Assembly: GCA_903826205.1 (NCBI GenBank)
Contig: CAIKDP010000189.1
Location: 1-49,594, forward strand
Length of the DNA stretch: 49,594 nucleotides
Origin: Akkermansiaceae bacterium
GTDB taxonomy: Bacteria; Verrucomicrobiota; Verrucomicrobiia; Verrucomicrobiales; Akkermansiaceae
Direction: 5' to 3'
Shown: positions 38,336 through 48,674 of the stretch, in pieces
Layout: every line of letters starts with the position of its first letter
How positions within the stretch are numbered: the first letter of the stretch is position 1
Made by a program: the position numbers and the translations under genes
The notes under the pieces: generated by a model
What the model was told of the DNA's origin: nothing
The model's database searches: none
What the model saw: only the letters and a program-made list of their open reading frames with translations

Positions 38336-39661
38336 ATGGCTGACATACCGATGCAATCCTTGGCTCGACCGCTGCGGCTTGGCGGACTGGCACCCGTGGA
38401 GGTGGCCGGGCGCTTGAGGCATTTGCCGGGCTTGGTGTTTTTCGACACCGCAGGAAATCGGCCCACTGCAGGGGGGCGGGCGGTGTCGGTTATTGCCGCG
38501 CGGCCCGTGCGGGTGCTGCACGGAAATTTGTTTGCAGAAACCGATCGACAGCGCTTGCAGGCGGCGGTGGCGGCCGGACCGCAAGTGCCCGGCGCACACG
38601 GGTTTCCGCTCGGCGGCCTCTGCGGGTGGGTCGATTACGAGGGGGCTTTTGTCTTCGGCGATTATCGTGAGATGCTGGTGCATTGCCATGACGAGGGGTC
38701 GTGGTGGGAGGTGGGCGGGCTGTCCGGGTGCCTGAGTGCGGCACCGGTGGCGGGGGCGCCTGTCTTCCCTGACAACCGGGACGGCTGTCCTCCGCCACCG
38801 CACATCGGACGGTTCACTGCTCTAACGAGCCGCGAGGATTTCATCACGGGGGTGCAACGGATCAAGGAATGGATTGCGGCGGGCGACATCTATCAGGTGA
38901 ACCTGTCGCAGGCGTATCAGGCACCGCTGGCGGGTGGCTCCTTGTTTGGCTTGTACGAAGCCTTGCGGGACGCCTCGCCGGCACCGATGGCGTGCTGGAT
39001 GTCACTGGCCGGGCGGGAGGTGCTGAGTTCCTCGCCGGAGACATTTTTGAAGGTGTCCGGGCGGCAGATCGAGACCCGCCCGATCAAGGGGACGCGGCCG
39101 CGCTTTGCGGATGGGGAGGCAGACCGGAGTGCGGCGCGTGAATTACAGAATTCGGCCAAGGAAGTGGCCGAGTTGGTGATGATCACGGATTTGCTGCGCA
39201 ATGATCTGGGGCAAGTGTGCGAATTCGGGTCGGTGGCGGTGACGGGAATGCTGCAGTTGGAGAGTCTGGGCCAAGTGCATCACCTGGTCTCCACGGTGAC
39301 CGGCAGGATGCGCCAGGATGTGGATGGGGTCACGGCCTTGGCCGCCTGTTTTCCGGGCGGCAGCATCACCGGCGCACCCAAACTGCGGGCCATGGAAATC
39401 ATCCGTGAACTGGAAGCCGCGCCTCGCGGAATCTATTGCGGGGCACTCGGGTGGCTGGGATTCAATGGCGAGTGCGCGTTCAATATCGCGATCCGCACGC
39501 TGGTCCGCTGTGGGTCGCAGCTTTGCTACCAAGTGGGCGCGGGCATTGTGGCGGATTCCGATCCGCAACAGGAATACGAGGAGACACTGCACAAGGCGGC
39601 GGGCATCCGCCTGGCCATCGAACGCTGGCAGCACTCAAACAGCCCATACGACCAGGGATGA
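38336..39661 (+). CDS. pabB: Aminodeoxychorismate synthase component I
   Basis: Chorismate-using enzyme of 441 residues, usual PabB length. The divergent N-terminal part (GGLAPVEVAGRLRHLPGLVFF) matches anthranilate-synthase-I-type N domains. The chorismate-binding domain contains GDIYQVNLSQ, SPETFL, RPIKGTRPR with the conserved Lys, MITDLLRNDLGQV, GSITGAPKLRAMEII and YCGALGWLGFNG. The PIKGT Lys and absence of the TrpE feedback segment favour PabB over TrpE. I start at the ATG at 38336; a GTG directly upstream and ATG 38351 are alternatives, while the longer frame back to 37469 is antisense of rpsB. The amidotransferase partner PabA is not in the window; pabC is at 21850. Confidence 0.88.
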   Translation: MADIPMQSLARPLRLGGLAPVEVAGRLRHLPGLVFFDTAGNRPTAGGRAVSVIAARPVRVLHGNLFAETDRQRLQAAVAAGPQVPGAHGFPLGGLCGWVDYEGAFVFGDYREMLVHCHDEGSWWEVGGLSGCLSAAPVAGAPVFPDNRDGCPPPPHIGRFTALTSREDFITGVQRIKEWIAAGDIYQVNLSQAYQAPLAGGSLFGLYEALRDASPAPMACWMSLAGREVLSSSPETFLKVSGRQIETRPIKGTRPRFADGEADRSAARELQNSAKEVAELVMITDLLRNDLGQVCEFGSVAVTGMLQLESLGQVHHLVSTVTGRMRQDVDGVTALAACFPGGSITGAPKLRAMEIIRELEAAPRGIYCGALGWLGFNGECAFNIAIRTLVRCGSQLCYQVGAGIVADSDPQQEYEETLHKAAGIRLAIERWQHSNSPYDQG

Positions 39662-39846
39662 TCCGGCCCTCCGCATCCCGCCTCCAATGGCTTCAATTTG
39701 CGTCCCCTCCCGCGTTCTCACGCACGCACCAGCAATAAACCCCGCTTTCCACACCGCCGGCGGGCCACGCTTCCCGGATTCAAGGCGCGCTGGAGAAATT
39801 TCTGATTTGCGAAACATTGCGCAAAGCCTGCCCGTATTCCCCGTGC
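39662..39846. other. Gap between pabB and the chorismatase-like gene
   Basis: This holds a decayed REP at about 39711-39728 whose left arm CGCGTTCTCACG is intact but whose right arm is altered. No terminator or gene is evident. Confidence 0.4.
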
Positions 39847-40974
39847 ATGAAGCAGCTCACCCAGCCCCAATTGGAGATTATCGCGGAATCTTTTGGCTCG
39901 CTTTGGAGCCGGGCCATCCCGAAATCCGGGTGGACCGAATTTCTCTTGGGAGCCATTCCGGGAAACGGCTCGTCACCTAACAACTGGCTGGCGGATTTGT
40001 CCGCCTTTCTGGAGCAGACTGGCGCCACGCTGGTGGAACTCGATGCCTTTGGCGATGCGTTGCTGATGGGTGAAATGGCCGAGGCTCTGGCAAGCTCGGG
40101 TTTTGCCGCGGTTCCGGTTTCATTGTTGGTCAACGCCAGCTACCCCGGCCCACCAAGTGGCGGCTTGTTAGTCCGGGCGGTGCTCGGGGTGACGGTCGAA
40201 CCGGTCGTCTATCACGGCAAGACACTGGGCTTCCGCTTCGAGGATGAAAACGCGACGTATTGCTACCTCGGCGGCTTGGTTCCGGACGATGGCCAACAAG
40301 ACGGCGCAGGCCAAACCACACAGGTGATGTCCGACATCCGGGGAAGCTTGCGCGCGGTGGGCATGGGGTTTCGGGATGTGGTGCGGACCTGGTATTATCT
40401 CGACGGGATTTTGGCGTGGTATGACGACTTCAACCGGGCACGCACCGAGTTTTTCAAGGAGCACGATGTGTTCTCCAAAATGATGCCGGCCAGCACCGGC
40501 ATCGGCATCGCCAATGCCTCCGGCAAACTCGTGCTGGCCAAGGTCCATGCCTTGCGCCCGAAAAATCCAAATTGCAGTGCGCGCGTGGCCGATTCGCCCT
40601 TGCAAGGCTGCGCCTATGCCTATGGCAGCGCCTTCAGCCGGGCGCTGGAATTGCGCTCACCGGAAGGCCGCACCCTGCACATCTCCGGCTCCGCCAGCAT
40701 CGCCCCCAGCGGCGAAACCGAATATGTCGATGACGTCGACGCCCAAATCCAACGAACCCTGGAAGTGGTGCAAGCCATCTTGCATCAGGCCGGCATGGAT
40801 TGGTCTGACACGGTGCGCGGCATCGCCTATTTCCGCCATGCCAAGGATCTGGCCCTGTGGGAAGCCGCACGCAACGCGCTGACCCTGCCGTCACAGGTGG
40901 AGATCGTCGTGTATGCCGACGTTTGCCGGGATGACTTGCTATTTGAGCTGGAACTGGAAGCATCGAGCGCATGA
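39847..40974 (+). CDS. Chorismatase-like (FkbO/Hyg5/XanB2-type) RidA-fold protein
   Basis: A 375-residue protein resembling the FkbO/Hyg5/XanB2 chorismatases, which have two RidA/YjgF-like halves and cleave chorismate to pyruvate plus a benzoate or cyclohexadiene acid. Supporting stretches are VVRTWYYLDGILAWYDDFN (compare the R-T-W-Y/N-Y-L and F-N-x-x-R family pattern), ASTGIGIANASGKLVL, SARVADSPLQGCAYAY, LHISGSASIAPSGET and VRGIAYFRHAKD. The alternative is a generic RidA-domain protein of other function. The ATG at 39847 gives the family start. The stop overlaps the DUF1549/1553 start by 4 bases (ATGA), tying it to the secreted-protein cluster. Catalytic residues were not verified, so activity is unproven. 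Confidence 0.65.
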   Translation: MKQLTQPQLEIIAESFGSLWSRAIPKSGWTEFLLGAIPGNGSSPNNWLADLSAFLEQTGATLVELDAFGDALLMGEMAEALASSGFAAVPVSLLVNASYPGPPSGGLLVRAVLGVTVEPVVYHGKTLGFRFEDENATYCYLGGLVPDDGQQDGAGQTTQVMSDIRGSLRAVGMGFRDVVRTWYYLDGILAWYDDFNRARTEFFKEHDVFSKMMPASTGIGIANASGKLVLAKVHALRPKNPNCSARVADSPLQGCAYAYGSAFSRALELRSPEGRTLHISGSASIAPSGETEYVDDVDAQIQRTLEVVQAILHQAGMDWSDTVRGIAYFRHAKDLALWEAARNALTLPSQVEIVVYADVCRDDLLFELELEASSA

Positions 40975-42542
40975 GACGCCTTGCATCGGTCCTGCTGTGG
41001 TTGTGTGCGGCGCTTGCGCCCGCCGCAACCCCCGCAGGCCCCCCGATGCCTCGCGAGCCTTATGAAGCCTCCTCCTTTAGCGTTCCGCCATGCCGCATTG
41101 ACGCCATCATTTTCACCCGTCTGGCCAAGGACGGTTTGGTTCCGGCACTCCCCTGTTCCGATGCGGTGTTCGTCCGCCGGGTTTTTCTCGATCTGATAGG
41201 CACCCTGCCGACCGGTGACGAGGTGGCGGCCTTTCTCAGCGACAAAGCCTCTGACAAGCGCAACAAGCTGGTGGACACCTTGTTCAAGCGCGATGAATTC
41301 GCCGATTACTGGGCCATGAAATGGTGCGACCTGTTGCGCGTCAAGGCCGAGTTCCCAGTCAACCTGTGGCCCAATCCCGCACAGGCCTATCATCGCCTCG
41401 TGCATACGTGCCTGGCCGACAACCTGTCGATGGACCGCTTTGCCAGGGGCTTGCTCACCGCCTCCGGCAGCAACATGCGCGTGCCCCAGGCGAATTTTTT
41501 CCGCGCCGTGCAAAGCCGCGAACCCCGTTCCCTTGCCGCCGCCGTCTCGCTCGTGTTCATGGGTGTGCGCCAGGATTCCTGGACACCTGCCGAGTTGGAC
41601 TCCCTCGCGGTCTTCTTCTCCCGCGTCGGTTACAAGTCCACCATGGAATGGAAAGAGGAGATCGTGTTTTTTGATGAAGCCAAACCCGCGGCCAAAGGCC
41701 CGGTGAATATGCCCGACGGGCAGCTGCTGCCCGTCCCGCCGGAGCGTGATCCGCGCTCCGTGTTCGCCGATTGGTTGATCCAACCTAACAACCCTTGGTT
41801 CGCGCGCAACCTCGCCAACCGCGCCTGGTACTGGCTGTTGGGTCGCGGCCTCGTCCACGAACCGGATGATGTCCGCAAAAACAATCCACCGTCCCATCCG
41901 GAACTGCTGGCATACCTCGAAAAGGAATTCGTCAGCCACGGCTATGACATGCGGCATCTGCTGCGCCTGATTGTCAACTCCCGGACCTATCAACTCTCAT
42001 GCATTCCCGTCGGTGACAACCCGCGGACGCTGGAATTGTTTGGTGCCTATCCGATCCGGCGCCTGGATGCCGAGGTGCTGATTGATGCCATCTGCGCGGT
42101 GACGGGAACCGGCGAAAGTTACTCCAGCGCCATCCCGGAGCCGTTCACCTTCCTGCCGGACGGCTCGCGCGCCATCGCCTTGCCGGATGGCTCCATCAGC
42201 AGTTCCTTCCTCGAATTGTTCGGGCGTCCGGCGCGCGATTCCGGGTTTGAAAGCGAGCGCAACTCGAATCCCAGCGCCGCCCAACGACTGCATTTCCTCA
42301 ACTCGTCGCAGATCCGTTCCAAGATCGAAAAAAGCTCCAGCCTGGGCAAACTGCTGCGCAATACCGGCGCACCTAACAACACAGCCACCCAGCTCTACAC
42401 GGACATTCTCTGCCGCCCGCCCACCGAAACGGAAAAATCCCTGGTCCGGGAAGTCCTCGGTGCCGCGACCAACCGCAAGGAGGCGCTCATCGACTTGACC
42501 TGGGCCTTGTTCAACACCACCGAATTCCTATGTCGTCATTAA
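40971..42542 (+). CDS. Secreted DUF1549/DUF1553 protein
   Basis: Exported protein of 523 residues of the Planctomycetota/Verrucomicrobiota PSCyt2-PSD1 class. A signal peptide (VLLWLCAALAPAATPA) is followed by a DUF1549 segment (IDAIIFTRL, FVRRVFLDLIGTLPTGDEVAAFL, YWAMKWCDLLRVK) and a DUF1553 segment (RAWYWLLGRGLVHEPDD, GYDMRHLLRLIVNSRTYQLS, RRLDAEVLIDAI). The PSCyt1 haem domain often fused to this pair is absent, so it is a haem-less form. The start overlaps the chorismatase-like gene and the end overlaps DUF1501 by 13 bases, indicating one translation unit. Molecular function is unknown for the family. Confidence 0.85.
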   Translation: MRRLASVLLWLCAALAPAATPAGPPMPREPYEASSFSVPPCRIDAIIFTRLAKDGLVPALPCSDAVFVRRVFLDLIGTLPTGDEVAAFLSDKASDKRNKLVDTLFKRDEFADYWAMKWCDLLRVKAEFPVNLWPNPAQAYHRLVHTCLADNLSMDRFARGLLTASGSNMRVPQANFFRAVQSREPRSLAAAVSLVFMGVRQDSWTPAELDSLAVFFSRVGYKSTMEWKEEIVFFDEAKPAAKGPVNMPDGQLLPVPPERDPRSVFADWLIQPNNPWFARNLANRAWYWLLGRGLVHEPDDVRKNNPPSHPELLAYLEKEFVSHGYDMRHLLRLIVNSRTYQLSCIPVGDNPRTLELFGAYPIRRLDAEVLIDAICAVTGTGESYSSAIPEPFTFLPDGSRAIALPDGSISSSFLELFGRPARDSGFESERNSNPSAAQRLHFLNSSQIRSKIEKSSSLGKLLRNTGAPNNTATQLYTDILCRPPTETEKSLVREVLGAATNRKEALIDLTWALFNTTEFLCRH

Positions 42543-43960
42543 ACCCATACCACAACGACAGGTCGTCACCCCGCCCCACAGTGGACCGGGCATGTTGCCC
42601 GGATCTTCCCGCGCCGGATCCGCGAGGTCTGCCAATGTCACGGCGCCGCGTCATCCAATGTGCCCTCGGTGGCTCCGCCAGCGTGTTGTTATCCAACCAA
42701 CCCTTGTTTGCGGAAACAGCGGCACCCGCGGCCACTCCGCCGCCGCGTCCGGCACGGGCGAAGTCGGTGATCCAGATCTGGCTCTGGGGCGGACCTTGTC
42801 ATCTGGACACCTTTGACCCCAAACCCGAGGCCGGCACGGACTATTGCGGCCCGTTTGGCAAACCCCTCGAGACGAAGGTGGCGGGCATCCGTATCAATGA
42901 GTTATTGCCGGTGCTGGCCTCACAGGCCGACAAGTTCTCCATCCTGCGGGGCATGACCCATGGCATCAACGCCCATGAAACAGCGTCCTATGTGATGCAA
43001 ACCGGTCATCCCGAAGGGGATCGCATTGTCTATCCGTCAGTGGGCGCGGTGGTGTCCCTCTTCAAAGGTCGCGCCGCAGGCTATCAGGGGCAGATTCCTC
43101 CCTACATCGTTCTAACCGAACCACAGGGGCGTTTCTCCGAGGCGGGCTTTCTTGGCTCGCGCTACAAGCCATTCGCCACCGGCGGCAACCCGGCCAAGAC
43201 CCCCTTTGCCGTGGAAGGCATCGTTGCGGAAGGCTTCAGCGAGGAACGCCAACGCGCCCGCCGCGATTTGCTCCACCGCATGGACACCCTCGCCAAAGAT
43301 ATGCCCCAGCACCCGGCCATCGCCGCCATGCGCCGCTGCGAGGATGACGCGTATGACCTGATCCTTGGCAACGGCGCCAAGACCTTCGACCTCAATCAGG
43401 AAACTCCGGAACTGCGCGATAAATACGGTCGCAGCACCTTCGGCCAGTCCTGCCTGATGGCACGCCGCCTGGTCGAACTCGGCGTCCCTTATATCACCAT
43501 CAACTACAAAGGTTGGGACACCCACAAACAACACTTCCAAATCATGCGCCGCCAACTCCCGGAAATGGACAAGGGCGTCGGCACCCTTATCGAGGACTTG
43601 GCCAGCCACGGACTCCTTGACAGCACCATCGTCTGGTGGGGCGGCGAATTCGGCCGCACCCCCAAGGTCCAGAATGAATCCCCGTGGAATGGCGGCCGCA
43701 GCCATTATGGCAAGGCGTTTTGCTCAATGGTGGCCGGCGGCGGATTCAAGGGCGGTCAGGTCGTGGGCGCCACCGATGCCCGCGGCGAGGAAGTCGCCTC
43801 CCGCCCGATCTATCCATGGGACCTGGTCGGCAGCATCTATGAATTGTTGGGTATCGACACCGAAGCCACCCTGCCCCACCCGCTCGGCCTCACCGCCCGC
43901 GTCATGCCGGGCAAGGAGGAAAAACTCAAGAGCGGCGGCAGGCTGCATGAAATCATGTGA
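42530..43960 (+). CDS. DUF1501 protein with twin-arginine signal
   Basis: A 476-residue DUF1501 (sulfatase-like fold) protein. The Tat motif is in PMSRRRVIQCALGGSAS, so folded export is likely. The core shows IQIWLWGGPCHLDTFDPKP, RGMTHGINAHETAS, GHPEGDRIVYPSVGAVVS, GRSTFGQSCLMARRLVE, NYKGWDTH and VWWGGEFGRTPKVQN, all typical. It overlaps the DUF1549/1553 gene and is followed by the PPC protein. DUF1501 partners of DUF1553 proteins are ubiquitous in this phylum but their substrate is unknown. Export with the haem-less partner suggests a joint periplasmic role. Confidence 0.92.
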   Translation: MSSLNPYHNDRSSPRPTVDRACCPDLPAPDPRGLPMSRRRVIQCALGGSASVLLSNQPLFAETAAPAATPPPRPARAKSVIQIWLWGGPCHLDTFDPKPEAGTDYCGPFGKPLETKVAGIRINELLPVLASQADKFSILRGMTHGINAHETASYVMQTGHPEGDRIVYPSVGAVVSLFKGRAAGYQGQIPPYIVLTEPQGRFSEAGFLGSRYKPFATGGNPAKTPFAVEGIVAEGFSEERQRARRDLLHRMDTLAKDMPQHPAIAAMRRCEDDAYDLILGNGAKTFDLNQETPELRDKYGRSTFGQSCLMARRLVELGVPYITINYKGWDTHKQHFQIMRRQLPEMDKGVGTLIEDLASHGLLDSTIVWWGGEFGRTPKVQNESPWNGGRSHYGKAFCSMVAGGGFKGGQVVGATDARGEEVASRPIYPWDLVGSIYELLGIDTEATLPHPLGLTARVMPGKEEKLKSGGRLHEIM

Positions 43961-43971
43961 GCCTAACCATC

Positions 43972-46329
43972 ATGACACTCCAGCCGATCACCCGCTTCGT
44001 CCGACCTGTCCGACCTGTCCGACCTGTCCGACCCTCGGCGTTCCGCCTCTTGCTCCTCATTCCTCTCGCCATCTCTTTGTTGCTGGCGGCACCCGCGTCT
44101 GCCCAACAACAACCTCCCGTGATCGGCTACGCATTGCCGGCCGGCGGCCGCCAGGGAACCCAGTTCGAGTGCGCCGTGGGCGGCGCCAATCTAACCGGAA
44201 CCACCGCGGCCATCATTTCCGGAACCGGCGTGAGCGCCGAGGTGGCCAAACACTTCAAGCCGCTCAATGGCGGCCGGGAAAGGGAGATCCGTGACTTGCT
44301 GCAGGCGGAACGCGAAAAATTGAAGAAAGACAAACCTCTGCCGCGCTTCGCGCGCGACGAGGACCTGCTGACCCAGATTGCCGAGCGGGCCGGAATCACC
44401 GCCGACGAGGTGGCGGCGTTTCGTGAAGGCGTCATGCAAAAGCGTGACCCCAAACACCAACTCAACCCGCAACTCGTGGAACGGGTCACGCTGCGCATCA
44501 AGGTCGCGGCCAATGCGCCGACCGGCAAACACGAGGTCCGCCTGCTCACCCCCAGCGGCCTTTCCAATCCCATCGTGTTCCAGGTCGGTGTGCTGCCGGA
44601 AGTGATGGAAGCCGAACCTAACGACAAGCCCGCCGACGCCGACGCCACCCCGGTGAAAATCCCGGCGGTAATCAACGGCCGCATCCTGCCCGGCGATGTG
44701 GATTGTTTCGCCTTTGATGCCCGGGCGGGCATGAAGCTCACCGTGGCCGTCGCCGCCCGCGAGCTGATCCCCTATCTGGCAGATGCGGTCCCGGGATGGT
44801 TCCAGGCCAACCTCACCCTGTTGGATTCCAAACAACATGAAGTCGCCTTCAGCGATGACTTCTGCTACCGGCCGGACCCGCTCATCTGCGTGAGCATCCC
44901 CACCGACGGCCGTTACACGCTGCGCATCCGCGACTCCATCTGCCGCGGACGCGAGGACTTCGTCTATCGCATCAGTGTGGGCGAACTTCCCTGCCTAACC
45001 GAACAATTCCCCGCGGGCGGGCAGATCCACTCGAAGGTTGACGTCCGCGTGGCCGGTTGGAACTTGCCGGAGCGCAGCATCACCGTGGACGCAGGCGACT
45101 CGCCGGGACTGCGCAACATCGGCTTGCAGGCGCCGGCCATCGGGTTTGTCAGATTTGAAGCCGGGAGCTTCCCCGAATTTTTGGAAGCCGCGTCCGACGC
45201 CAAGCCGGGGGCGCCCTGGGAGTTGCGCTTTCCCTGTGTTGCCAATGCGGTCATCAGCAAGCCGGGCGAACATGATGTCTGCGCGCTGCGCCTGCAGGCG
45301 GGGACCGGGGTGGTCGCGGAAATCCGCGCCCGCCGCCTCGGTTCTCCCTTGGACTCAATGCTCAAAGTCACCGATGCCGATGGCAAAATCATCGCGTCTA
45401 ACGACGACTACGACGACCCGTCCGCGGGCCTGGAAACCCATCATGCCGATTCGCGCGTCGCCTTCACCGTCCCCAAGGATGACCTCTATCAATTCCATGT
45501 GTCGGACACCCAGGGCAAGGGCAGTCGCGCTCACGCCTATCGTCTGACCATCGCCCCGCCGCAACCGGGGTTCGACCTGCGCATCGTGCCGTCGAGCATC
45601 AATGGCCGCGCCGGTGCCATGGTCCCCGTCACCGCCCATGTCATGCGCCACGATGGCTTTGCCGGCGAAATCGATCTGAGCCTGAAAGACGCACCGCCCG
45701 GCTTCGGGTTGGCGGGTGCCAAAATTCCCGCCGGCACCGACTCGGTGCGGCTGAGCGTGAAAATGCCTGACGCGGCGGGCGCGGTCCCCGTGCCGCTTGC
45801 CATCGAAGGGCACGCCCGCATCGGCAGTGCGGACGTCGTGCGCACGGCGGTGCCCGCGGATGACCGGATGCAGGCATTTTTCTTCCGCCATCTCGTGCCC
45901 GCCGATGCCTTGTTAGCCTGGGTCATGGCCAAGCCTAAGGGCGCCAAACGCCCGCCGGAAACACTGGCCGGCATCGAGAAATTCCGCGCCGCCTGCGCGG
46001 CGGGCATCGCCATTCCGGCCGGTGGCACCGCCACCCTCAGCTTGCCGGGCCTGGGCGCGCTTTCTAACAACAGGCCACTGACCTTCGCGCTCAGCACCCC
46101 GCCGCCGGGCATCTCGCTGGATGCCAAACCCAACGGCAACACCATGGACTTCATCTTCAAGGCGGATGCCGCGAAAACCAAGCCCGGCCCTCTCGGCAAT
46201 CTGATAGTGAATGTTTTCACGGAGATGCAGCCGCCCCAGGTTGAGGGCAAGCCCGCCAAGCCAAAGCGCTCCATACAGGTTGCCACCTTGCCACCCATCC
46301 CGTGCACGATTACCGGACAAGGCAAGTGA
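43972..46329 (+). CDS. Secreted pre-peptidase C (PPC) domain protein
   Basis: A 785-residue exported protein, the third member of the DUF1549/1553-DUF1501 cluster. The n-region of the signal peptide has three VRP repeats before RLLLLIPLAISLLLAAPASAQ. The mature part starts with a beta domain (GGRQGTQFECAVGG), and contains two PPC-type domains around VDCFAFDARAGMKLTVAV and HDVCALRLQAGTGVVAEIRA, with YDDPSAGLETHHADSRVAF nearby, then further Ig-like beta segments. It ends with an Lys-rich VEGKPAKPKRSIQ. GTG 43957, overlapping the DUF1501 stop, is another possible start; ATG 43972 is preferred. It is probably a substrate- or wall-binding partner. Confidence 0.85.
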   Translation: MTLQPITRFVRPVRPVRPVRPSAFRLLLLIPLAISLLLAAPASAQQQPPVIGYALPAGGRQGTQFECAVGGANLTGTTAAIISGTGVSAEVAKHFKPLNGGREREIRDLLQAEREKLKKDKPLPRFARDEDLLTQIAERAGITADEVAAFREGVMQKRDPKHQLNPQLVERVTLRIKVAANAPTGKHEVRLLTPSGLSNPIVFQVGVLPEVMEAEPNDKPADADATPVKIPAVINGRILPGDVDCFAFDARAGMKLTVAVAARELIPYLADAVPGWFQANLTLLDSKQHEVAFSDDFCYRPDPLICVSIPTDGRYTLRIRDSICRGREDFVYRISVGELPCLTEQFPAGGQIHSKVDVRVAGWNLPERSITVDAGDSPGLRNIGLQAPAIGFVRFEAGSFPEFLEAASDAKPGAPWELRFPCVANAVISKPGEHDVCALRLQAGTGVVAEIRARRLGSPLDSMLKVTDADGKIIASNDDYDDPSAGLETHHADSRVAFTVPKDDLYQFHVSDTQGKGSRAHAYRLTIAPPQPGFDLRIVPSSINGRAGAMVPVTAHVMRHDGFAGEIDLSLKDAPPGFGLAGAKIPAGTDSVRLSVKMPDAAGAVPVPLAIEGHARIGSADVVRTAVPADDRMQAFFFRHLVPADALLAWVMAKPKGAKRPPETLAGIEKFRAACAAGIAIPAGGTATLSLPGLGALSNNRPLTFALSTPPPGISLDAKPNGNTMDFIFKADAAKTKPGPLGNLIVNVFTEMQPPQVEGKPAKPKRSIQVATLPPIPCTITGQGK
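43999..44036 (+). repeat. 9-base tandem repeat in the PPC signal region
   Basis: About four copies of GACCTGTCC encode VRPVRPVRP in the positively charged part of the signal peptide. The unit is a multiple of three, so copy change alters length but not frame. Confidence 0.8.
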
Positions 46330-46556: not shown

Positions 46557-47714
46557 ATGAATGCCTCTTCCGCACCCACTGCCCCTGGCAACGATTCCCA
46601 CGTGACACTCCGTGAAATCCAGCACCAACCGGCTTGTTGGAAAAAAACATTCGAGATCATCCGCGCCGCCAGGCCGGCGATTGAGGCGTTCCTGCAATCC
46701 TTCAACGCCAACGCTGCAGACCGTCAGGTGATCATCACCGGTGCCGGGACCTCGGCGTATGCGGGCATCGTGTTGGAATCGATCATCCGTAGGGACACCC
46801 GGGCCTTTGTCAGGGCGGTGGCCACCACCGATCTCATCCTCGAGCCGGACAGTTATTTCAAACCCGGGATTGCCACCCTGTTGGTTTCGTTTGCCCGCTC
46901 GGGCGACAGCCCGGAAAGCAAGGCGGCTATCGATCTTGCGGACCAATCGGCGTCGGTCGTCAGCCATCTCATCATCACGTGCAATGTGAATGGGCGGATT
47001 GCGGTAAAGCGCGACGACTCCAATGCGCTGGTGATCTTCTTGCCGGATGAAACCAATGACAGGGGCCTGGCGATGACCAGCAGTTTTTCCAACATGCTGC
47101 TGGCAGGGATTCTCACCTTTGCATGGCATCAAATCGGCGATGTTGAAAAGCAGGTGGCCACCCTCATGGGTTGTGGCTGCAAGATCCTCAAGGATTATAC
47201 CGGTGCCATTGAGGATATTTCCAAGTCCGGGTTTCGGCAGGCGGTGTTTCTTGGATCGGGCAGCCTGACCGGCATCGCCCAGGAATCGAAGTTGAAGCTT
47301 TTGGAACTCACCGTGGGTGACGTCGTCTGCCACCACGAATCGTTCGTGGCCTTCCGCCACGGCCCAATCGCGGTGATGAACCAAGATACCCTGCTGGTCT
47401 GTCTCTTTTCCAGTGATCCCTGCATCCAACAATATGAAAGGGATCTGGTGAACTCCTTGCACAAGGGGAAGTTCAAACTCGGCATCTCCCAACACCCGGT
47501 CGCCGGTGTGACTGTGGACCAGGCGCTGGTGTTCGGTGACGCCACCGACGATGACCTGTGCCGCGAATTGTTGCCGGTGTGCGCGGTGCTGCCCGGCCAG
47601 ATGTTAGGTTATTTCACCTCCTTGCACATCGGCCTCAATCCGGACGCCCCCTGCACCGACGGGAGTTATTCCCGCGTGGTCCAGGGCGTGCATATCTATC
47701 AACCAACCCATTGA
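46557..47714 (+). CDS. agaS: SIS-domain sugar isomerase/deaminase (AgaS-like)
   Basis: A 385-residue protein with two SIS domains, of the AgaS/GlmS-isomerase-like group. The first domain contains VIITGAGTSAYAGIVLES and LLVSFARSGDSPESKAAIDLA; the second contains FLGSGSLTGIAQESKLKLLE, followed by VVCHHESFVAFRHGPIAV. AgaS converts galactosamine-6-phosphate to tagatose-6-phosphate plus ammonia. The next genes are a PfkB kinase and a GatZ-type protein, completing the logic tagatose-6-P to tagatose-1,6-bisP to triose phosphates. The start is ATG 46557. Confidence 0.85.
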   Translation: MNASSAPTAPGNDSHVTLREIQHQPACWKKTFEIIRAARPAIEAFLQSFNANAADRQVIITGAGTSAYAGIVLESIIRRDTRAFVRAVATTDLILEPDSYFKPGIATLLVSFARSGDSPESKAAIDLADQSASVVSHLIITCNVNGRIAVKRDDSNALVIFLPDETNDRGLAMTSSFSNMLLAGILTFAWHQIGDVEKQVATLMGCGCKILKDYTGAIEDISKSGFRQAVFLGSGSLTGIAQESKLKLLELTVGDVVCHHESFVAFRHGPIAVMNQDTLLVCLFSSDPCIQQYERDLVNSLHKGKFKLGISQHPVAGVTVDQALVFGDATDDDLCRELLPVCAVLPGQMLGYFTSLHIGLNPDAPCTDGSYSRVVQGVHIYQPTH

Positions 47715-47729
47715 CATAACTTCAAACCA

Positions 47730-48674
47730 ATGCAAGACATCATCGTAGTGGGCGAGTTGAACGTGGATATCATCCTGGACGGCCTGCCGTCATTTCCCGA
47801 GGTCAACAGGGAGCGCATCGCCAGCCGCATGGAAACCGTGCTGGGGAGTTCCTCGGCGATTTTCGCCAGCAATATTTCCAGCCTCGGCATGCGGGTCGCC
47901 TTCATCGGTAAGCTCGGCATGGATGATTACAGCGAACTCATCATCGATAATCTGGAGAGCAAGGGCGTCGATACCTCCCACATCCTGGTGGATGCCAAAC
48001 TGCGCACCGGGGCCACCGTCATTCTCAGCAGCGGCGAGGACCGCATGATGGTCACCTATCCGGGCAGCATGAATCATCTCACCCTCGCCGATGTGCCGGT
48101 GGATGTGTTGCGGCAGGCCAAACACCTGCATTTCTCGTCGTTCTTCATCCAGCCCGGCATCCGCCCGCAGGTCGGCGACCTGATGCGGATGGCCAAGGCC
48201 GCCGGCCTAACAACCTCGCTCGACCTGCAGGGCGACCCCGATGAGGCCTGGGATTTCGATTACGCGGCGATTCTGCCGCATGTGGATGTGTTCCTGCCGA
48301 ATGAATCGGAACTGCTCGCCCTGACCGGGGATACCGAATTGCCAGCGGCGCTGGACAAGCTCGCCCGCCATTCCAACATCATAGCCGTGAAGTGCGGCAG
48401 CAAGGGCTGCCTCGTCTCCCATGAAGGGGATAGCTTTTGGCAGGCACCCTACCTGAATGCGGCGGTGGTCGACGCGATCGGCGCGGGAGACAGCTTCAAT
48501 GCGGGCTTCATTTGCAAATTCAAACAGGGCAAGACGCTGCCGGAGTGTGCCGACTTTGCCAACCTGATGGGGGCAATCTCGACCACGGCGGTGGGTGGAA
48601 CCATGGCCTTTGCCAACAAGTGCATCATCATGGAAACCGCACTCCACAAGTTCAATCAAGTCATCCACTTATGA
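47730..48674 (+). CDS. PfkB-family carbohydrate kinase (probable tagatose-6-phosphate kinase)
   Basis: A 314-residue ribokinase-fold sugar kinase. It begins IIVVGELNVDIILDGLPSFP, has GSSSAIFASNISSLG and GKLGMDDYS early, and ends with the PfkB signature DAIGAGDSFNAGF with catalytic Asp254. In this operon the likely reaction is phosphorylation of tagatose-6-phosphate to the 1,6-bisphosphate, but fructose- or ribokinase activity cannot be excluded by sequence alone. It is 15 bases after agaS and overlaps the next gene by 4 bases (ATGA). Confidence 0.85.
   Translation: MQDIIVVGELNVDIILDGLPSFPEVNRERIASRMETVLGSSSAIFASNISSLGMRVAFIGKLGMDDYSELIIDNLESKGVDTSHILVDAKLRTGATVILSSGEDRMMVTYPGSMNHLTLADVPVDVLRQAKHLHFSSFFIQPGIRPQVGDLMRMAKAAGLTTSLDLQGDPDEAWDFDYAAILPHVDVFLPNESELLALTGDTELPAALDKLARHSNIIAVKCGSKGCLVSHEGDSFWQAPYLNAAVVDAIGAGDSFNAGFICKFKQGKTLPECADFANLMGAISTTAVGGTMAFANKCIIMETALHKFNQVIHL

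Follow-up and report, generated by a model that had tools for sequence, protein, structure and literature searches.

The gene cluster

A contig from an Akkermansiaceae bacterium, CAIKDP010000189.1 of assembly GCA_903826205.1, is considered here over the whole analysed stretch of 49,594 nucleotides (the window). At 39847-46329 it carries four co-directional genes that encode, in this order, a predicted chorismatase-superfamily enzyme, a haem-less DUF1549/DUF1553 protein, a DUF1501 protein and a PPC-domain protein (Table 1). Successive genes overlap by 4, 13 and 4 bases; the first two overlaps had been claimed in the original prediction for this DNA and are borne out by the open reading frames (ORFs). 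An alternative TTG start for the enzyme gene is possible further upstream, at 39817.

Table 1. Features of the cluster and its 5' side
Feature	Position	Strand	Remarks
Chorismatase-superfamily enzyme (predicted), two fused RidA-like domains	39847..40974	+	375 amino acids; ATG start
Marked residues of the enzyme			Arg180, Trp182, Tyr192, Arg199, Arg265, Gly281, Cys360, Glu367
DUF1549 (PSCyt2)/DUF1553 (PSD1) protein, haem-less	40971..42542	+	523 amino acids; ATG start; apparent Sec signal peptide, read by eye
DUF1501 protein	42530..43960	+	476 amino acids; ATG start; apparent twin-arginine signal (MSRRRVIQCALGG), read by eye
PPC-domain protein	43957..46329	+	790 amino acids; GTG start; signal peptide apparent by eye
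pabB (aminodeoxychorismate synthase component I), neighbour only	38336..39661	+	start codon uncertain
Non-coding block directly 5' of the enzyme gene	39792..39846	+	partly conserved in loci L033-L036, four close relatives

The three downstream products score above the Pfam cut-offs throughout (PSCyt2 96.2, PSD1 151.9, DUF1501 309.2 and PPC 31.6 bits), and no CxxCH haem motif is seen by eye in their translations. No signal peptide is apparent on the enzyme, which should therefore be cytoplasmic. Thermonuclease matches to the DUF1501 protein among PDB sequences, from E 0.027 upward, were taken as chance.

A chorismatase fold with Hyg5-type residues

The enzyme has the fold of the chorismatases over its whole length. 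In a PDB sequence search the top hits are FkbO and Hyg5 (E about 2e-6), and a 78-row profile finds Hyg5 in the PDB at E 1.4e-19. The AlphaFold2 model, built from 78 sequences, has a predicted local distance difference test (pLDDT) score of 92.9 and a predicted template modelling score of 0.91; its leading Foldseek matches in the PDB are Hyg5 (5ag3, E 1.6e-17) and FkbO (4bps, E 8.1e-17). Structural alignment gives Z 32.6 with Hyg5 5ag3 and Z 31.8 with FkbO 4bps, and over 4bps, 5a3k and 5ag3 the values span 31.8-32.6, with 300-303 residues aligned at 2.5-2.6 Å. RidA/YjgF proteins share the RidA fold with each half of the enzyme, but they are single domains of about 130 amino acids, and RidA chains cover just one half of the model (Z about 11 over 120-132 residues).

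The active-site residues are those of Hyg5. Excerpts of PMC7170507 describe Glu-334 of Hyg5 as the essential acid and a Gly, Gly, Cys set as the mark of the 3-hydroxybenzoate-forming Hyg5 subfamily. By alignment, Hyg5 Gly240, Cys327 and the catalytic Glu334 are retained as window Gly281, Cys360 and Glu367, and the excerpted signature reads Gly218, Gly281 and Cys360, with Gly218 equated to Hyg5 position 173 by an assumed constant offset from the Nat-hyg5 numbering. In an alignment of 127 rows, the window plus 126 loci, Arg180, Trp182, Arg199, Phe263, Arg265, Gly281, Ala283 and Gln300 are invariant, and Glu367 (126, one gap), Cys360 (125; one Ser, one gap) and Gly218 (122) are nearly so; 77 of these rows were obtained through a search pattern that contained the Cys and Glu stretch, and the 50 found without the pattern keep Cys in 49, Glu in 50 and Gly281 in 50. 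Hyg5 shares the residue letters at the well-kept positions, whereas FkbO, similar in fold, has Ala at both 281 and 360. In the 23-row alignment A1, Hyg5 is identical to the relatives in 18 of 19 invariant columns, Gly240, Cys327 and Glu334 included, and FkbO in 16.

In a tree of 129 rows (a quick tree with midpoint root, for which the program warns of long branches at the FkbO/Hyg5 group), partial FkbO and Hyg5 chains group with the homologues at L061, L062 and L084 with a Shimodaira-Hasegawa-like approximate likelihood ratio support of 99, and the window enzyme falls in a separate clade of 124 rows. Because it lies outside the FkbO/Hyg5 group and reaches only 57.3 bits with TIGR04444, the model of these subfamilies (cut-off 325), it is not counted as a member of either. 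Its sequence suggests a new subfamily of the chorismatase superfamily, set apart from FkbO and Hyg5 by the tree. Of the assignment to an FkbO/Hyg5/XanB2 family in the original prediction, the two-domain chorismatase fold stands and membership in the FkbO and Hyg5 subfamilies does not. XanB2 (CH-III), presumably of the same fold, supplies hydroxybenzoates.

It is unlikely that the enzyme is instead a RidA-like hydrolase, or a non-chorismate enzyme built on a chorismatase scaffold. Ribonuc_L-PSP is its strongest Pfam match (59.7 bits), the TIGR04444 cut-off is missed, and an Arg and a Glu of the second domain are common to RidA proteins too; against this stand a Z of about 32 to chorismatases versus about 11 to RidA, an FkbO_Hyg5-like_N match of 29.8 bits above the cut-off of 27, the Hyg5-like Cys360 and Gly281, and the shikimate-pathway neighbours described below. 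An ordinary RidA-like protein, named as the alternative when the enzyme was first predicted, does not agree with this two-domain enzyme and its Hyg5-type residues.

Some homologues deviate from the window enzyme. In the relative at L068 the FkbO_Hyg5-like_N match is 25.5 bits, under the cut-off. The ORFs at L175:4133-5815 and L176:8148-9851 have 560 and 567 amino acids, so that either the N-terminus is much extended or the start is misassigned. The FkbO/Hyg5-like homologues at L061:10158-12748 and L062 adjoin a flavoprotein that resembles a halogenase, perhaps in loci of the aryl-polyene type.

Exchangeable partner modules

The surroundings of the enzyme were compared in 130 homologue loci, made up of the loci of 30 relatives, 20 loci chosen by hand in 18 of the 155 enzyme-bearing genomes, and the best 80 of at least 563; without the repeats L088, L089 and L097 there are 127 distinct loci. 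Two kinds of partner predominate. Module A is the DUF1549/1553-DUF1501-PPC set of the window, and module B consists of a di-haem beta-propeller cytochrome and/or a cytochrome resembling hydrazine synthase alpha (HZS-alpha-like), the latter carrying CxxCH motifs and the middle domain of HZS_alpha. At distances of up to 6 kb from the enzyme, parts of module A are found at 37 distinct loci and module B at 50, with hemE/hemY at four, imelysin/DHOR at two and none of these at 34; A and B together are found at no locus (0/127). Far from being unique to this genome, the arrangement is seen again in further genera, families and classes.

Thirty-five of the module A loci have DUF1549/1553 or DUF1501, and two (L118 and L145) have PPC alone. 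The enzyme precedes DUF1549 at 15 loci, PPC precedes the enzyme at 16, and the genes lie on opposite strands at six; overlaps of 4 bases are present in both same-strand orders. The haem-less character claimed for the window's three proteins extends to their relatives, since CxxCH is missing from 37/39 DUF1549/1553, 39/39 DUF1501 and 39/39 PPC proteins (relatives of at least 33% identity over 300 amino acids in the 130 loci, the three repeated loci included). Module B comprises the propeller and the HZS-alpha-like protein at 23 loci, the propeller alone at 21 and the HZS-alpha-like protein alone at six. The loci that lack a scored partner include short contigs, the fragment L041 and L125, where an HZS_alpha protein adjoins the enzyme and was missed by the automatic rule.

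When A and B rows alone are counted on the enzyme tree, a minimum of nine partner changes is required. The labels are also more clustered than shuffled ones (0/500 as low), so that the partner is in part inherited. By record title, homologue loci occur in Verrucomicrobiota, Kiritimatiellota, Lentisphaerota, Planctomycetota, Hydrogenedentota, Armatimonadota, Gemmatimonadota, Myxococcota and Fibrobacterota. Module A loci are titled Verrucomicrobiota, Kiritimatiellota and Lentisphaerota, apart from the untitled bacterium at L145; module B is additionally present in Planctomycetota, Hydrogenedentota and Armatimonadota.

An HMGL-like aldolase gene recurs downstream of PPC (L053, L057, L058 and L059) and near the enzyme (L135 and L146), identified by PF00682 in L059 and L135 and by BLAST in the rest. 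An IclR regulator was read by eye beside module B in L170; IclR as a hydroxybenzoate sensor was dropped as a candidate, being found beside the enzyme in L071 and, weakly, L120 of the 130 loci.

Co-occurrence across genomes

The linkage extends beyond adjacency. The enzyme profile matches 155 of 387 genomes of the phylum (E <= 1e-25). The haem-less DUF1549/1553 subfamily, delimited at 430 bits or more by a line chosen after the scores were known, occurs in 80 genomes, of which 77 also encode the enzyme, and the propeller cytochrome (E <= 1e-90) in 75, of which 71 do. With A or B present the enzyme is found in 121/127 genomes, against 34/260 with neither (Fisher P 4e-60, kinship ignored). Long DUF1549/1553 forms differ from the haem-less subfamily in this respect: genomes with only long hits (at least 737 amino acids) have the enzyme in 2/23 cases, versus 77/80, the 23 control genomes being hand-picked by open-frame length and presumed to hold the haem form. 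Shorter or split hits below 430 bits are found in some genomes with the enzyme (e.g., G498 and G307) and in some without it (G286, G360 and G506). Among the six genomes that have a module and lack the enzyme, G379, G378, G395 and G421 are 86-89% complete, G212 94% and G228 92%.

Both modules are present in 28 genomes, 27 of which have the enzyme. The window's genome is one of the 28: its module B lies on contig C63 (L169, G000:C63, 2895-10943) and comprises two HZS-alpha-like cytochromes besides the di-haem propeller cytochrome, and the enzyme gene is single-copy in this genome. Of the 140 tabulated enzyme rows, 43 show co-location within 10 kb, a low count because contigs are often short and scoring took in only the best 3-4 candidates of each genome; the genome-level figures are therefore given beside it.

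That this neighbourhood arose from chance or kinship, with no functional tie, is very improbable. Many loci do come from related genomes, the P values are uncorrected and the profiles were built from linked members, but there are three arrangements, 4-base overlaps in both orders, loci in several phyla, two partners that are never seen together at one locus and a genome-level dependence with a negative control. A further explanation, in which 4- or 3-hydroxybenzoate from the enzyme serves a quinone, pigment or signal and the neighbours are merely co-regulated, is improbable to a lesser degree. A UbiA-family gene neighbours the enzyme in L098, and an excerpt of PMC12423496 and the title of a reference in PMC7170507 ascribe such a role to XanB2 in Xanthomonas; the 121/127 co-occurrence with two unrelated secreted modules and the exchange of partners are left unexplained by it.

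Chorismate supply and other neighbours

The pabB gene to which the original prediction drew attention is real (TIGR00553 333.0 bits, cut-off 328.4) and ends 185 bases upstream of the enzyme gene. It is not a conserved neighbour: no relative is found in loci L033-L062 at E 1e-5, and a search of the 130 loci (E 1e-10, half coverage) gives none within 10 kb of the enzyme, some of their contigs being short. pabB was therefore rejected as a part of the module. Of the earlier interpretation, the association of a chorismatase-like enzyme with the haem-less module has held and now includes a second, unrelated module, and the link to pabB has fallen away.

Other shikimate-pathway genes do recur. In 12/127 loci a gene for 3-deoxy-D-arabino-heptulosonate 7-phosphate (DAHP) synthase is situated no more than 2.1 kb from the enzyme; family models confirm it in eight (L112, L054, L076, L083, L099, L108, L119 and L159), and in L111, L116, L120 and L132 it is assigned by BLAST. 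Eight of the 12 share the one-strand order DAHP synthase-propeller cytochrome-enzyme (L108, L111, L112, L116, L119, L120, L132 and L159), all with record titles of Kiritimatiellota or Verrucomicrobia, and L054, L076, L083 and L099 are arranged otherwise. In seven of these eight the run is followed by a gene for a membrane protein and by a CcsA/CcsB-like gene. In L112 the CcsB-model match is under the cut-off and the first gene behind the enzyme has no NCBIfam match, the label 'ResB-like' being based on weak BLAST similarity and our own reading. In L125 a gene for 5-enolpyruvylshikimate 3-phosphate (EPSP) synthase is situated 305 bases upstream of the enzyme. Two hits fall between 2.1 and 10 kb: a protein 8.0 kb away in L125 resembles DAHP synthase with scores under the cut-offs, and a neighbour at 7.4 kb in L073 was discarded as a DAHP synthase, since the family model identifies it as 3-deoxy-D-manno-octulosonate 8-phosphate (KDO8P) synthase. 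The recurring DAHP synthase genes and the EPSP synthase gene of L125 support chorismate as the probable substrate.

Around the window cluster itself, the 5' non-coding block was compared in a MAFFT alignment of the sequences upstream of the gene in the window, in L033-L036 and in L038; the window copy contains TTTGCG-N8-CGCAAA at 39806-39825. Downstream of the cluster (46557-48674), in the same orientation, come genes for an AgaS-like SIS protein and a PfkB kinase, and neither has a relative in loci L033-L062 at E 1e-5.

Iron and haem contexts

In G255 (L068:2017-12330), a genome from the window's family that consists of one contig of 2.7 Mb, the enzyme gene is embedded in a one-strand run of imelysin-DHOR-enzyme-FecCD-FecCD-ABC ATPase-binding protein-ResB-cytochrome c assembly protein. 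A second genome of the family (G332, L174:5331-13103) repeats this order through the binding protein, near a contig end, and G269 (L073) has DHOR-enzyme-imelysin-imelysin. The L068 imelysin belongs to PF09375 and scores 55 bits with the EfeO model (cut-off 270); the best NCBIfam match of the binding protein is catechol_SstD, at 214.5 bits (cut-off 450). No iron-linked gene was recognised beside the window cluster. In L078:8048-13158, L074, L107 and L109 the enzyme is near relatives of hemE, hemN and/or hemY, names that are based on sequence likeness judged by eye and BLAST to L078.

The imelysin/DHOR/importer loci and the di-haem proteins of module B may point to extracytoplasmic iron or redox chemistry. 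A narrower form of this idea is possible but doubtful, namely that the aromatic is itself a siderophore-like iron ligand or reductant and that modules A and B are alternative extracytoplasmic devices for iron handling. The runs in L068, L174 and L073 would agree with it. On the other hand, such a context is found at 2/127 tabulated loci (L174 being outside the 127), the SstD and EfeO cut-offs are missed, the L068 binding protein and FecCD have no relatives beside any other tabulated locus, and 3-hydroxybenzoate is a poor chelator.

A proposed role for the enzyme

The explanation we favour, and consider somewhat more likely than not, is that a cytoplasmic chorismatase makes a hydroxybenzoate-type aromatic that is required by interchangeable extracytoplasmic redox or iron modules. 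The enzyme would convert chorismate into a hydroxybenzoate-type acid and pyruvate; 3-hydroxybenzoate is a first guess for the product because of the Hyg5-like Gly and Cys. The aromatic would then leave the cell, presumably by export, and serve an extracytoplasmic module. In the window the secreted module A would be the receiver. Module B, with its di-haem propeller and HZS-alpha-like cytochromes, may take this place in other genomes as well as at another site of the window's own genome, and an operon of imelysin, di-haem protein and siderophore-type importer may do so in two genomes of the family. The use favoured for the aromatic is extracytoplasmic iron or redox chemistry.

Several points weigh against this proposal. 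The activity of the enzyme, its product and the export are predictions. The TIGR04444 score is low, the second-domain Arg and Glu are shared with RidA, and part of the residue counts came through the motif-bearing pattern. None of the scored partners is seen at 34 of the distinct loci, 34/155 genomes with the enzyme have neither module, and the iron context is limited to few loci. The profiles for A and B were built from enzyme-adjacent members, which favours linked ones, the P values ignore kinship, the cut-offs were set by us and scoring was restricted to the best 3-4 candidates in each genome. The DUF1549/1553 protein has no fold relative in the PDB at E <= 0.001 (best E 0.2) and no sequence relative below E 0.2; its model is weak (pLDDT 71.7, 15 sequences), and the missing match says nothing about its fold. 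Structure yields no mechanism for module A.

Relation to known systems and significance

Hyg5 (CH-II), which forms 3-hydroxybenzoate from chorismate, resembles the enzyme in its whole fold. Identity is about 20%, however, and the partners of the present enzyme are secreted DUF or haem modules. FkbO (CH-I) is more distant in its active site, as described above. The window's DUF1549/1553 protein has Pfam domains in common with the planctomycete-specific cytochrome and PSD proteins (PSCyt2 and PSD1), but its subfamily lacks CxxCH and accompanies a chorismatase-like gene. The module B partner shares the HZS_alpha middle domain and CxxCH motifs with hydrazine synthase alpha; unlike the latter, it adjoins a propeller di-haem cytochrome and a chorismatase-like gene. 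Among the titles and abstract openings of the literature matches listed, which covered DUF1501/1549/1553 proteins, chorismatases, HZS-alpha-like proteins, and imelysin and hydroxybenzoate topics, no description of the pairing of enzyme and secreted module is found, and within those matches the predicted 'undescribed functional module' stands.

The Verrucomicrobiota and several other phyla may thus possess, although we put this somewhat below an even chance, an undescribed class of chorismate-dependent extracytoplasmic redox or iron systems, in which modules A and B do the same job by unrelated proteins and one chorismatase of a new subfamily supplies a small aromatic. The HZS-alpha-like cytochromes are tied to the same chorismatase-like enzyme. 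The genome-wide tie between the haem-less DUF1549/1553 subfamily and this enzyme provides a concrete biochemical handle, and a testable first lead, on a group of mystery secreted proteins: the product of one soluble enzyme could direct the search for their function.

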